A DNA stretch of 64,000 nucleotides from Beggiatoa leptomitoformis. Lineage in GTDB: Bacteria > Pseudomonadota > Gammaproteobacteria > Beggiatoales > Beggiatoaceae. This document shows positions 2,207 to 46,270 of the stretch, one piece after another. The stretch covers positions 1,984,001-2,048,000 of the forward strand of contig NZ_CP012373.2 in assembly GCF_001305575.3 (NCBI RefSeq), given 5' to 3'. Position numbers and translations under genes: made by a program. Every line of letters starts with the position of its first letter. The first letter of the stretch is position 1. The notes beneath the pieces are model-generated. The model made no database searches, was not told the origin of the DNA, and saw only the letters and a list, made by a program, of their open reading frames with translations.

Positions 2207-3166
2207 ATGAATCTGAATTTTTTAGAGTTTGAACAACCCATCGCAGAACTTGAAGCAAAAATTGATGAATTACGCTATGTTGGTAAAGATAATGAAATCA
2301 ACATCAGTGATGAAATAGAACGGCTCAAAAATAAAAGTGAAGAACTAACCCGTTCTATTTTCAGCGCGCTCAGCGCGTGGCAAATCGCCCAACTGGCGCG
2401 CCATCCGCAACGCCCCTACCTATTAGACTATATCGAACATGTCTTTACTGAATTTAAAGAATTACATGGTGATAGAGCGTTTGCCGACGACGAAGCGATT
2501 ATCGGTGGATTAGCCCGCTTAGCGGGTCGTTCCGTAATGGTTATTGGACACCAAAAAGGGCGCAGCACACGGGAAAAAATTCAACGCAATTTTGGAATGC
2601 CCCGCCCAGAAGGCTACCGTAAAGCCTTACGACTAATGCGCATGGCAGAACGATTTCGCTTACCCATTTTAACCTTCATCGACACCCCCGGTGCTTATCC
2701 CGGTGTGGACGCAGAAGAACGTGGACAAAGCGAAGCTATTGCCCGTAACCTCTACGAAATGATAGGGCTAACAGTACCTATTATCTGCACAGTGGTTGGC
2801 GAAGGCGGGTCGGGCGGTGCGCTAGCCATTGGGGTTGGCGATAGAGTTGCCATGTTGGAATACAGCACATACTCCGTGATTTCACCCGAAGGTTGCGCAT
2901 CTATTTTATGGAAAAGCGCGGATAAAGCCCCAGAAGCGGCAGAAGCAATGAATTTAACCTCTAAACGCTTAAAAGAATTGGGGCTAATTGACATCATTAT
3001 CCCTGAACCATTAGGTGGGGCGCATCGAGACGTACCGCAAATGATGGAAAATATGAGTCAAATTTTACAAAGCACACTGAAAGTCTTAGACGAACTAACC
3101 ATAGAAGACCTATTAGAGTCTCGCTATCAACGGTTTATGCAATTTGGTGTGTTTGAAGAAGCATAA
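2207..3166 (+). CDS. accA: acetyl-CoA carboxylase carboxyltransferase subunit alpha
   Basis: AccA pairs with AccD to transfer the carboxyl group from biotin to acetyl-CoA, the first step of fatty acid synthesis. The product has 319 residues, the usual gammaproteobacterial length. It starts with the typical helical leader [20 protein letters not shown], continues with [19 protein letters not shown], and has the glycine-rich [17 protein letters not shown] and the segment [15 protein letters not shown], all characteristic of the crotonase-fold alpha subunit. It begins nine bases after the HugZ-like gene; the ribosome-binding site is weak. Confidence 0.96.
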
Positions 3167-3202
3167 ATTAGGATTCACCCACGCACTCCCCGAGCCAGTG
3201 GC

Positions 3203-4195
3203 ATGACTGACCATGACCAAAGTTATAAACTATTCTTTTCACACCCAGAAATGGTCAAAGACTTATTACAAGGCTTTGTTCATGAAGATTGGGTGCAAGA
3301 ACTAGATTTTTCCACATTAGAAAAAGTCAGTGGTCAGTTTACCAGTGAAGACTTACGCAGTCGGGACAACGATATTATCTGGCGAATTCGTTGGCAAAAT
3401 AAATGGTTGTACGTGTATATTCTGATGGAATTTCAATCTAGTATAGATAACTACATGGCAATACGCCTAATGGTTTACATCGGCTTACTCTATCAAGACC
3501 TGATAAAAAGTGGCATAACCACTGACAAATTGCCGCCTGTTTTGCCCATTGTTTTGTACAACGGTAGTCGACGGTGGACAGCCCCTCTAAATGTACAAGA
3601 TTTGATAGAACCTTCCCCCTTACAAAACTACCAACCCCAACTACACTATTTACTAATAGACGAAGGCAGTTACACCACAGCAGAATTATCCTCTTTACAC
3701 AACCTAGTTGCTGCGTTATTCCGCATAGAAAAAGGGCAAACGGAAGCAGAAATTATTGCTGTATTAAACGCACTGATTGAGTGGCTCAAAGCCCCCGAAC
3801 AACTCAGCATCAGAAATACCTTTGTGATATGGCTAAAACGGGTTTACATACCTAAACATTTACCCGATAGTCAGTTATCGAACTTAGTAGAACTACAGGA
3901 GATAAAAGTTATGTTAGCCGAACGTGTAGAGGCTTGGTATGCAGAAGGCATTCAAAAAGGACGAGAAGAAGGCAAATTAGAAGGAATACTTGAAGGCAAA
4001 TTAGAGGGTAAAATAGAAGGAAAACAAGATGCTGTTCTCAATTGTTTAAGCCTCCGTTTTGGTAAACCCGCTTTAGAAATTCAACAGATTATCTACAATG
4101 CACAAGATACCGCAACTTTAGATGAACTGATGAAACATGCCCTATTTGCAGATTCTTTGGCTACTTTTCAACAATTAGCTCAGATTAAACATTGA
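3203..4195 (+). CDS. Rpn/YhgA-family PD-(D/E)XK nuclease-like protein
   Basis: A 330-residue protein of the Rpn (recombination-promoting nuclease) / putative transposase_31 family. The N-terminal nuclease-like domain begins YKLFFSHPEMVKDLLQGFV and contains the candidate active-site run RDNDIIWRIRW ... YVYILMEFQSS (D, then E-x-Q), followed by VLPIVLYNGSRRW. The C-terminal part has charged G-K-x-E-G repeats (about residues 250-272) and a DUF4351-type helical end (VLNCLSLRFGK). Such genes occur in many copies in filamentous and bloom-forming bacteria. It sits between accA and an acyltransferase with no operon logic, so it is probably a mobile or lineage-specific insertion. Confidence 0.85.
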   Translation: MTDHDQSYKLFFSHPEMVKDLLQGFVHEDWVQELDFSTLEKVSGQFTSEDLRSRDNDIIWRIRWQNKWLYVYILMEFQSSIDNYMAIRLMVYIGLLYQDLIKSGITTDKLPPVLPIVLYNGSRRWTAPLNVQDLIEPSPLQNYQPQLHYLLIDEGSYTTAELSSLHNLVAALFRIEKGQTEAEIIAVLNALIEWLKAPEQLSIRNTFVIWLKRVYIPKHLPDSQLSNLVELQEIKVMLAERVEAWYAEGIQKGREEGKLEGILEGKLEGKIEGKQDAVLNCLSLRFGKPALEIQQIIYNAQDTATLDELMKHALFADSLATFQQLAQIKH

Positions 4196-42240: not shown

Positions 42241-42247
42241 TCACTGT

Positions 42248-42283
42248 AAATAGACTTGTTCAGTCATGAACAAGTCTATTTTT
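42248..42283 (+). terminator. strong terminator after the LysM lipoprotein gene
   Basis: AAATAGACTTGTTCA (42248-42262) pairs perfectly with TGAACAAGTCTATTT (42267-42281), GTCA loop, followed by TT. Fifteen base pairs; it separates the LysM lipoprotein gene from nlpD. Confidence 0.92.
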
Positions 42284-43215: not shown

Positions 43216-44178
43216 ATGGATGACGACCCTATTGTATTAGATGATACGGACATCCTTGAAGGTGATGATGTCGCAGATGTTGACGAACCCGTCACGGAAG
43301 AAATAGAAGCAGGGGTTGTAGCCCCTGTTCACGATGTTGTGGATGGTGATCGTGATGCAACCCGTATTTATTTAAATGAAATTGGTTTTTCCGCACTTTT
43401 AACACCACAACAAGAAGTTGATTATGCACGGCGCGCTCAAAAAGGCGATATGGATGCACGGCGCATGATGATTGTGGCAAATTTACGCCTAGTCGTAAAA
43501 ATTGCGCGGCGTTATATGAATCGTGGGCTTGCTCTTTTAGATTTGATTGAAGAAGGCAATTTAGGTCTGATTCGTGCCGTAGAAAAATTTGACCCCGAAC
43601 GTGGGTTTCGCTTTTCAACCTACGCAACATGGTGGATTAAACAAACGATAGACCGCGCGTTGATGAACCAAACACGCACCATTCGTTTACCCATTCATGT
43701 CGTAAAAGAGCTAAATATTTACTTGCGTGCCGCACGTCAATTGTCACAAAAACTTGATCGCGAACCCACGCCTGAAGATGTTGCTCAAGAGCTAGACCGT
43801 CCGATTGAAGATGTAAAACGGATGTTAGGTTTAAACGAGCGGATTACCTCAGTTGACACGCCACGGGCAAATGACTCTGAAAAATCATTGCTTGACACTA
43901 TTCCTGACGAACAAAACCCCGACCCATCGGTATTATTACAAGATGCGGACATGTTAAAACACATTGAATTGTGGTTATCACAACTCAACGAGAAACAAAG
44001 ACGGGTTGTTGAACGTCGATTTGGTTTAGATGGTGATGAAGTTGCGACACTTGAACAAGTCGGTGCAGAAATCGGTATCACCCGCGAAAGAGTAAGACAA
44101 ATTCAACTGGAAGCCTTAAAACGATTGCGGGAAATTCTGGAAAAAGAAGGATTTTCAGGAGAAGCGTTGTTTAAATGA
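43216..44178 (+). CDS. rpoS: RNA polymerase sigma factor RpoS
   Basis: Stationary-phase and general stress sigma factor. 320 residues. After an acidic leader ([20 protein letters not shown]) come region 1.2 ([20 protein letters not shown]), region 2 ([52 protein letters not shown]), region 3, and region 4 ([20 protein letters not shown]). Start at ATG 43216 just after AATGATGAGGCAGAT, which carries GAGG as ribosome-binding site. In relatives a main rpoS promoter lies inside nlpD; none was verified here. Confidence 0.96.
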
Positions 44179-44285
44179 CAATATTGTCGAGGTTTTGGTC
44201 AGGCAAGATTTAATAAAGTGTCATCATAAAACCAAATAAAACCGAATTATCGTCAGATTTACTAACAATACTGTAGAACAAACAC

Positions 44286-44325
44286 AAAACCCCTTGAACT
44301 GAATATCAGCGCAAGGGGTTTTTTT
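44286..44325 (+). terminator. intrinsic terminator downstream of rpoS
   Basis: AAAACCCCTTG (44286-44296) pairs with CAAGGGGTTTT starting at 44312, loop of about 15 nt, then TTT. It lies 107 bp after the rpoS stop. Confidence 0.85.
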
Positions 44326-44412
44326 ATACAAAAATACACGGACTATTTATAATAACCTGATATAGAAAAAATTTTTCAATCTAAAAATAACTAACCACGA
44401 TGAACAAAAAAC

Positions 44413-44429
44413 TTGGCACTCTAATTGCC
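44413..44429 (+). promoter_or_regulatory. predicted sigma-54 (RpoN) -24/-12 promoter
   Basis: TTGGCACTCTAATTGCC at 44413-44429 matches the consensus TGGCAC-N5-TTGC: the invariant GG is at 44415-44416 and GC at 44427-44428, exactly ten bases apart. Expected transcription start is about 44440. No coding frame lies downstream on this strand; only two hairpins do. Enhancer-binding sites were not identified. Confidence 0.72.
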
Positions 44430-44439
44430 TTATAGGAAA

Positions 44440-44525
44440 TAGCTACATGATGGATTGCTCCTACCCAGTCTGCATGTAGTTAGGTAGCTTGGGTACTGGT
44501 CACACCCATGCTACCGCATTTTATT
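44440..44525 (+). ncRNA. candidate RpoN-dependent small RNA between rpoS and rpoH
   Basis: From the predicted start, a first hairpin pairs AGCTACATG (44441-44449) with CATGTAGTT (44473-44481); its 23-nt loop contains CTCCT (44458-44462), complementary to AGGAG ribosome-binding sites. A second hairpin pairs GGTAGC-TTGGGT (44483-44494) with ACCCA-TGCTACC (44504-44515), one mismatch, followed by GCATTTTATTT, which would end the transcript. It resembles no small RNA family I know by sequence. Prediction only; expression not shown. Confidence 0.5.
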
Positions 44526-44640
44526 TAAACACACAAAACAAAACTGTCTAAACAAAAGCCCTCAGACCAAAATAGGGACAAATCAATATATTTCCCATTT
44601 ATCCAGCAAATACCGCAAAAAATCAGCCCGTTAATTACAA

Positions 44641-45507
44641 TTATATTGCGGTTAGTAAATTCTTCTTCAATTTTTTCATTGCATTATTTTCAATTTGCCG
44701 AATACGTTCCGCAGAAACATTGTACTGTTCAGCCAACTCTTGCAATGTTGCTTTCTCGTCGCCTAACCAACGCTTCTGTAAAATATCTTGGCTACGCAAA
44801 TCCAGTTGATCTAAAGCCTGTTTAAGCTGTTTATTCCCATGCGCATCCCACTCCGCCTGCTCAATCATGGTTGCGGGATCGTAACGAATGTCTTCTAAAT
44901 ATGCCGCTGGTGCAAGCATTTCATTTTCTTCATCGGCATCATTTGGCGCGTCAAACGCCATATCGTGCATTGTCAAACGGGTTTCCATTTCCAGCACATC
45001 TTTAGTGCTGACACCCAAATCTTTTGCAACCGACTCTACTTCAGCATTCGTTAACCAACCTAAATGCTTTTTTGCACTTCTTAAGTTAAAAAACAACTTA
45101 CGTTGTGACTTGGTTGTAGCGACCTTAACAATTCGCCAGTTACGCAAAATATACTCATGAATTTCTGCACGAATCCAATGGACTGCAAAAGAAACCAAAC
45201 GCACGCCAACCGTCGGGTCAAAGCGTTTAACGGCTTTCATCAAGCCAATATTGCCTTCTTGAATTAAATCCGCTTGCGGTAAGCCATAGCCACGATAGCT
45301 ATGTGCAATGTGCATCACAAAACGCAAATGCGACATTACCAATACCCGAGCCGCTTCAAGGTCTTCTTCACTCCGCAAGCGAACAGCCAGTGCTTTCTCT
45401 TCATCACTGGTTAACATTGGAATTGCTCTAATAGCCTGCGCATAACCTTCAATGCTTTGACCGGGAACAGCAAGTTGCAAATTAAGCGTTAATGTCTGAG
45501 ATGTCAT
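44641..45507 (-). CDS. rpoH: heat-shock sigma factor RpoH (sigma-32)
   Basis: 288 residues from the ATG at 45507, which has GGGGAGG eight bases upstream; an earlier in-frame ATG at 45549 lacks this. Contains the RpoH box [15 protein letters not shown], region 2 ([54 protein letters not shown]) and region 4 ([20 protein letters not shown]). It converges on rpoS, with the candidate small RNA between them. ftsX/ftsE, the usual upstream neighbours, are absent. Confidence 0.95.
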
Positions 45508-46270
45508 GGTAAACCTCCCCTCATAAGCGTTGTGAGATATGCTTGGCATTCTGTTGACAGAGCGCGAAAATCATGAGGATGGTATCTTCAACGCTTTTGT
45601 ACAGATTTAAACCCAGTGTAACACTCAGGTATTATTATGTCAAGTGAATCAAACAATCAGTTTCACACAGTCGTATAAGTTTTATACAAACTAACTATTC
45701 TATTTGACTAGTATTATTAAACGGGTTGTCTAATTTTTGTATAAGGTTAAAACCTTAGTCGTTGTCAACGCAACGATTAGCATACAAAATCTGCCAGTGA
45801 GGCATAAAACAAGGGTTAGCAAATCGGAAAAAGAAAGGGAGAAAACGATAATTCCCCCTCTATATCAACTTTGCACAGGCTGCAAAGCATTTGATGATAA
45901 TGAAGTATTAACAGTAATTAATACTGATGTTGAGGTATTGATGGTTAATATAACATAGCTTTTTCAGACTAGGGATTAATTTTTAGTTATAAAAATACCT
46001 AATAAATTAAGAAAATTTATAGCTTATGAAACATTATAATACAATGAGTTTTTTCATAAATTTACATTTTATCCTTTAGTGTCCATCCATAAACTTTATG
46101 TAATCCTGATAACATTAACTAAATTTTTTAAACTTGGCAGATACTTTATTACCTGTCTGAATCAGGCTTAATAACGGCTTTAAAAAGGAAAGACAAAAGA
46201 TTAAGCTTCTAATAATCCAATTAATTTTAGAACACAACTACTTTTTTACTCACCTACTAAATTAAACAAA
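45508..46270. other. long AT-rich region between rpoH and murU
   Basis: 763 bp between divergent genes. It holds a small palindrome GTATAA-GTT-TTATAC (45673-45687), which could be an operator in the rpoH upstream region, and otherwise very AT-rich DNA. An open frame at 45737-45958 starts with TTG and has no coding character. No tRNA or strong hairpin seen. Confidence 0.45.

Follow-up and report, generated by a model that had tools for sequence, protein, structure and literature searches.

A predicted RpoN-driven two-hairpin RNA gene between rpoS and rpoH of Beggiatoa leptomitoformis has related copies across Beggiatoaceae-like genomes

We analysed a window of 64,000 nucleotides (nt; 64 kb) from the genome of Beggiatoa leptomitoformis (contig NZ_CP012373.2, positions 1,984,001 to 2,048,000 of the forward strand) and identified a candidate small RNA (sRNA) gene between two converging genes named rpoS and rpoH. 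An initial annotation, made from the sequence alone, had placed these genes 462 bp apart, in agreement with the coordinates of the open reading frames (ORFs) and their stop-to-stop gap (44179-44640). The gap contains a two-hairpin RNA (44440-44515) preceded by a promoter of the sigma-54 (RpoN) type (Table 1).

The promoter TGGCACTCTAATTGC (44414-44428) is, as first annotated, a near-consensus RpoN box with an exact GG-N10-GC. On both strands of the window, TGGCAC-N5-TTGC occurs once and bare GG-N10-GC occurs 385 times; the intermediate form TGGYA-N7-TGC was found eight times. Because the looser forms are common in the window, the motif alone is weak evidence; its conservation carries the case, and a comparison with other genomes is needed. 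If the first G is taken as -25, transcription would start at 44440, which is the base of hairpin 1 and the start that the initial annotation had predicted.

The RNA from 44440 to 44530 is predicted to fold into two hairpins at -35.5 kcal/mol, compared with -20.9 +/- 3.3 kcal/mol for shuffled sequences (z -4.45), none of 200 of which was as stable. Hairpin 1 has 17 pairs in this fold and not the nine first proposed. The view that nothing downstream of the promoter codes for protein held up, as there is no conserved ORF. We considered a small frame within hairpin 1 (ATG at 44447, 10 codons) and rejected it, given that the copy in the second genome of the genus lacks the ATG and that, by eye, the steps in hairpin length among copies are not multiples of three.

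Table 1. Features of the region between rpoS and rpoH, in window coordinates (G001, second genome of the genus)
Feature	Coordinates	Strand	Basis and remarks
rpoS	43216..44178	+	ORF of 320 aa; 95% identity to the G001 counterpart; named as in the initial annotation; upstream same-strand neighbour, outside the RNA gene
rpoH	44641..45549	-	ORF of 302 aa; named as in the initial annotation; convergent neighbour, outside the RNA gene
Probable intrinsic terminator of rpoS, ACCCCTTG...CAAGGGGTTTTTTT	44289..44326	+	By eye; conserved in G001; missed by the terminator scan
Sigma-54 (-24/-12) promoter TGGCACTCTAATTGC, TGGCAC-N5-TTGC	44414..44428	+	GG at 44415-44416, GC at 44427-44428
Hairpin 1	44440..44482	+	Folding; helices 1-3 covary; predicted transcription start 44440
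Loop 1, CUCCUACC, likely seed	44458..44465	+	8 nt; near-invariant alignment columns 26-32
Hairpin 2, probably terminator hairpin	44483..44515	+	Folding; two-sided changes in 12/12 pairs, 95.6% of cells paired
Loop 2, ACUGGUCAC, conserved UGG-U/G-C	44495..44503	+	9 nt; alignment columns 100-104
U-rich 3' tail	44516..44530	+	GCATTTTATTT after hairpin 2; RNA end guessed at about 44520-44528

Judged by RpoS, the closest named relatives comprise, among others, metagenome-assembled genomes (MAGs) of Thiotrichaceae, Beggiatoa, Albibeggiatoa and Thiomargarita. We searched a family set of 42 Beggiatoaceae-like genomes, 30 of them rated good (an order-level search covered the same 42), including the genome of origin, G000, which is a single contig (C1), and G001. 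In G001 the RNA region also lies between rpoS and rpoH, and the promoter and the two hairpins fall within a 115-nt block of 85% identity, outside which the sequence has diverged except at the rpoS terminator. Weak DNA matches in G006, G026 and G008 share the loops and are preceded by a -24/-12 box, and G008 has two tandem copies. A covariance model built from six RNA parts (R1) matched 32 of the 42 genomes at an expectation value (E) of 1 or below, and yielded 74 copies at E<0.01 from 63 sources (the window, L007 and 61 regions fetched around matches). Counts over the 74 copies are complete and take in degenerate or partial ones, of which L153 has two and L185 one. The model refined from these copies (R2) matched 33 of the 42 genomes and 28 of the 30 good ones, with 79 hits, or one to five per positive genome. 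Two copies were found in the genome of origin, the second at C1:715542-715620 (-). Among 11 named genomes searched, to which RpoS loci had led, seven were positive (Thiotrichaceae STC_44, S06.Bin195 and BB3, Beggiatoa SZUA-411, Candidatus Albibeggiatoa and two Thiomargarita MAGs), all of which coincide by coordinates with genomes already counted under other handles. Since the RNA is present in 28 of the 30 good genomes, it likely matters to these cells.

Two arrangements of copies are recorded here as separate observations. Region L153 carries three tandem copies about 80 nt apart (3080-3323) that follow a single promoter-like box, the second and third being degenerate, and region L166 has two copies of the same sequence (3008-3087 and 3529-3608), 521 bp apart, whose upstream DNA differs.

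The promoter was excluded from all covariance models, which were built from the RNA part only, and its conservation is therefore an independent test. An exact GG-N10-GC lies 24-27 nt upstream of model position 1 in 59 of the 74 copies, whereas 65 control offsets average 0.9 copies and reach 3 at most. The box was found at the same offset in 53 of 68 copies outside the model seed, and in 49 of 63 after near-duplicate upstream regions had also been dropped. The commonest distance from GG to model position 1 is 25 nt (31 copies), which would put +1 exactly on model position 1. The more specific TGGYA-N7-TGC occurs upstream of 52/74 copies (control mean 0.12), and a de novo motif search from 140 to 10 nt upstream recovered tTGGCAt...taTTGC. 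Five further weak family matches all have GG-N10-GC upstream, four of them at 25-26 nt and one at 30 nt. RpoN is encoded in 40 of the 42 family genomes, including all 30 good ones and the genome of origin.

The stems are conserved in pairing and vary in sequence. Two-sided changes were already present in 14 of 28 predicted pairs among the six initial sequences, and in the 74-row alignment (71 distinct sequences) they affect all 28 pairs, with 90.1% of pair cells standard. We counted 374 two-sided cells, compared with 102 +/- 11 after shuffling and 25-50 with slid partners; the alignment had been made to fit this structure and is biased in its favour, and relatedness among sequences may by itself exceed a shuffled control, but the difference is nonetheless large. 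The loops, in turn, are nearly fixed. UCCUACC in loop 1 is near-invariant (69-73 of 71-73 in columns 26-32), with TCCTACC in 64/74 copies, and UGG-U/G-C in loop 2 is nearly as fixed, with TGGTC in 61/74. The initial annotation had pointed to a CTCCT loop complementary to Shine-Dalgarno sites; an exposed CUCCU loop does exist in the window, while the conserved core is UCCUACC rather than CUCCU. A subgroup of copies (L187, L188, L189, L192-L195 and others) has UGGGC in place of UGGUC, column 103 being G in 11 of 73 sequences, and perhaps represents a second functional class of the RNA. Two interactions within the RNA were considered by eye and rejected: kissing between the loops, as column 103 changes from U to G in those 11 sequences and A30 never changes, and pairing of loop 1 with an AGGU linker, as AGGT is present in only 39/74 copies.

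These comparisons bear on the explanation that the element is unexpressed, either a mobile repeat or a chance palindrome beside a chance promoter-like motif. The frequency of bare GG-N10-GC in the window and the mostly unrelated places of the copies would suit such an origin, which we nevertheless regard as highly improbable in view of the fixed spacing between promoter and RNA start, the covariation of the stems, and the small number of diverged copies in each positive genome, with just two found in the genome of origin. The initial proposal of a promoter-driven sRNA could have failed in the relatives at both the promoter and the hairpins, and both are conserved. Sequence comparison thus shows an RpoN-type promoter, a predicted start where hairpin 1 begins, covariation in the two hairpins, near-invariant loops and one to five copies per positive genome, and we conclude that the element is very probably a conserved RNA gene driven by RpoN.

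Beyond the family, we detected a weak match in one of 365 other genomes of a class-level draw, in one of 34 of a smaller class-level draw with laxer filters, and in one of 397 other genomes of a phylum-level draw; the class and phylum draws overlap, and 11-12 candidates per genome were scored in the large draws, such that distant relatives could be missed. The four family genomes in the class draw list were all recovered there. The outside matches (G181, G070 and G522; E 2e-4 to 2e-3) have neither GG-N10-GC upstream nor UCCUACC, and we regard them as chance. Four genomes found by way of their RpoS loci, for which 150 candidates were scored, likewise gave no match. No Rfam 15 family matched at its cut-off in the window (searched with lax filters), the relative L109 or 20 loci. 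Qrr, GlmY/GlmZ and CrcZ are among the Rfam families, and the initial impression that the RNA bears no sequence likeness to them is borne out. A limited literature search, mostly of freely available papers, turned up no description of such an RNA among the papers listed. Elsewhere in the window, a near-perfect inverted repeat (42247-42281, AAATAGACTTGTTCA...TGAACAAGTCTATTT) just upstream of an nlpD-like gene was touched only by chance-level Rfam matches.

The genes flanking the copies differ, and the places are mostly unrelated, some being tandem. The most recurrent right-hand neighbour is an LptG-like gene beside 10 copies, always on the opposite strand; others include oligopeptide-binding, ffh-like, rtcB-like and metG-like genes, all named by sight from their translations. 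Only the window and G001 copies lie between rpoS and rpoH. When R1 was run on 20 of 69 rpoS loci, some with little sequence after rpoS (about 200-250 nt in L039 and L087), only the window matched, and the rpoS context is thus not general. The placement between rpoS and rpoH, which the initial annotation had emphasized, is by sequence comparison a genus-only feature among the copies seen. Given that the neighbours differ, we consider the RNA to be a stand-alone gene.

The same surroundings speak to a cis-acting element, that is, an RpoN-driven leader or attenuator acting on the gene downstream, or an antisense RNA to the 3' end of rpoH. Neighbouring ORFs were taken from a simple caller (70 aa or more, tandem copies counted separately), and among the 70 copies with a right-hand ORF, the nearest one shares the strand of the RNA in 24, which speaks for such an element. 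It is on the opposite strand in the other 46, rpoH included, as well as in all 10 copies beside the LptG-like gene. Moreover, the high identity between the window and G001 gives out directly after hairpin 2, some 125 nt before rpoH, and leaves the antisense read-through suggested in the initial annotation unsupported. We give a cis-acting role very little credence; the surroundings fit an independent gene that has an end of its own, and they speak against a leader or an antisense function at rpoH.

We favour, with somewhat better than even confidence, the full reading that this gene is a member of a stand-alone, multicopy family of RpoN-driven, trans-acting sRNAs whose loop 1 pairs with Shine-Dalgarno regions. 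RNA polymerase with RpoN and an enhancer-binding protein would transcribe an RNA of about 80-90 nt on some signal. Hairpin 2 and the pyrimidine-rich tail would end the RNA and may hold Hfq, which is encoded in 37 of the 42 family genomes, including the genome of origin. Loop 1 would pair through UCCUACC with GGUAGGA-type Shine-Dalgarno regions of several messenger RNAs (mRNAs) and block their translation, and UGGUC in loop 2 might provide a second contact or a second set of targets. An exposed and conserved UC-rich loop, the mark of a trans-acting anti-Shine-Dalgarno RNA, is present (UCCUACC, which the predicted fold of the window RNA places in a loop of 8 nt). The genome of origin also has another Hfq-like gene, diverged in sequence, outside the window (C1:158615-158806, -), and G001, G015 and G019 likewise gave two Hfq matches, in G019 with an internal stop.

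Several observations weigh against this reading. At the 5' end, the exact box at 24-27 nt is missing from 15 of the 74 copies; by eye, six of these have a one-base variant, and in three an exact box stands 29, 30 or 38 nt upstream. The remaining six, chiefly the later members of tandem groups together with one partial copy, have no box in place, and one of them has GG-N10-GC at a distance of 39 nt, within the copy before it. No common activator site was found within 260 nt upstream, where an expectation-maximization (EM) motif search did no better than its control and k-mer and dyad counts did not convincingly exceed theirs, although the promoter region, used as a positive control, was recovered; activator sites may vary or lie further off than 260 nt, and these searches omitted tandem, truncated and near-duplicate copies, keeping 58 (k-mer and dyad) or 53 (EM) of the 74. 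At the 3' end, a terminator scan that allows loops of 3-8 nt does not call hairpin 2, whose loop has 9 nt, which makes the 3' end less sure than the 5' end. The first 10 nt after the model, in non-redundant copies, are 49% T and 4% G, whereas at 40 nt and beyond T makes up 31-37% and G 13-17%; this is a weak but consistent indication of a terminator tail. Six of the 74 copies run into or directly adjoin an ORF predicted by the simple caller, and the second copy in the genome of origin has ACACCUACC in its loop, which weakens the CUCCU part of the proposal. The pattern GGTAGGAG-N3-10-ATG is not enriched over its reverse (8 versus 5 in G000, 6 versus 12 in G001), one GGTAGGAG match in each of these genomes comes from an RNA copy read on its reverse strand, and this search gave no target gene common to the two. 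A duplex-energy search over the 55 gene starts of the window gave no convincing target; among the 12 best loop 1 duplexes rpoS is absent and rpoH appears only through an internal start, at rank 7. Finally, G004, with five RNA hits, and G009 are good, RNA-bearing genomes without an Hfq match; unless hfq is merely absent from these assemblies, this argues that the RNA does not need Hfq.

A separate observation concerns the upstream regions. The 5-mer ACTGA/TCAGT is about twice as frequent upstream of the RNAs as expected (49 versus about 23, copies in L135-L195). This excess may reflect the TAACTGA repeats described for marine Beggiatoaceae (PMC4679880), which are something distinct from the present RNA family.

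The lack of enrichment of the simple target pattern would also suit an RpoN-driven decoy, in which the loops UCCUACC and UGGUC titrate an RNA-binding regulator protein and pair with no mRNA. CrcZ, which titrates Hfq/Crc, and RsmZ, which titrates RsmA, are models for such an activity. Loops that are fixed in sequence and in their placement inside variable stems fit protein binding, and the multicopy and tandem arrangement would raise the dose. We consider a decoy unlikely, though still the foremost of the alternatives, in that each RNA has a single copy of each motif, whereas decoys of the CsrB/RsmZ and CrcZ types repeat their sites, the loops of the alignment consensus (UCCUACC, UGGNC) contain no GGA of the CsrB/RsmZ kind, and the loop 1 motif resembles an anti-Shine-Dalgarno sequence. 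Another explanation is that the RNA is a sponge or mimic whose loops pair with another sRNA or with 16S ribosomal RNA (rRNA) or the 30S subunit instead of with the Shine-Dalgarno regions of mRNAs. Loop 1 is similar to the anti-Shine-Dalgarno of 16S rRNA, and it appears more invariant than would be expected of a seed that tracks changing mRNA targets. UCCUACC nonetheless differs from the sequence of the 16S tail, and we hold a sponge or mimic to be improbable, though more likely than an unexpressed or a cis-acting element.

Under the favoured trans-acting reading, the copies may form a hitherto undescribed network of sibling sRNAs under RpoN control that extends through the family, with one to five members in each genome. 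We judge the chances to be evenly balanced that this is a Qrr-like regulatory layer of independent origin in giant and filamentous sulfur bacteria, in which the two loops stay constant while the stems vary freely, and which acts on a common set of mRNAs on an RpoN-coupled signal such as nitrogen, surface, gliding or cell density. Beggiatoa has cultured members, and the RNA, its signal and its targets are therefore open to direct test.

Among known systems, RsmZ of Pseudomonas is a small RNA gene beside or downstream of rpoS and carries repeated GGA motifs for RsmA. The RNA described here differs in having no conserved GGA loop, and its rpoS neighbourhood was seen only in this genus. CrcZ and CrcY are RpoN-driven, long, A-rich decoys with repeated CA motifs; they share with the present RNA the status of regulatory RNAs of gammaproteobacteria (Pseudomonas, Azotobacter), whereas the RNA here has about 80 nt and, by eye, lacks such repeats. 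GlmY and GlmZ are longer, and RpoN can drive them. They are paired sRNAs of enterobacteria (PMC7073468), to which the present RNA has no Rfam likeness. NmsRA and NmsRB of Neisseria are tandem sibling sRNAs with UC-rich anti-Shine-Dalgarno stretches, one of them in a loop, and are described as having three stem-loops, stringent control through RelA and a tandem location at one place (PMC5362039). In contrast, the RNA here has two stem-loops, an RpoN promoter and scattered places. The Qrr RNAs of Vibrionaceae have a fold that differs from the two-hairpin fold. They resemble the present family as RpoN-dependent, stand-alone and often multicopy sRNAs, with four qrr genes (PMC3352281) and a sigma-54-dependent qrr1 activated by LuxO and SypG (PMC10162802). 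The present family differs from Qrr in its lack of an Rfam match and of a shared upstream activator site in our searches, and in its occurrence in a different bacterial family. Its mode of action would be like that of the RpoN-driven sibling sRNAs of other bacteria, with unrelated sequence; if so, it would constitute a further independent case of RpoN joined to multicopy sRNAs and would bear on why this pairing recurs.
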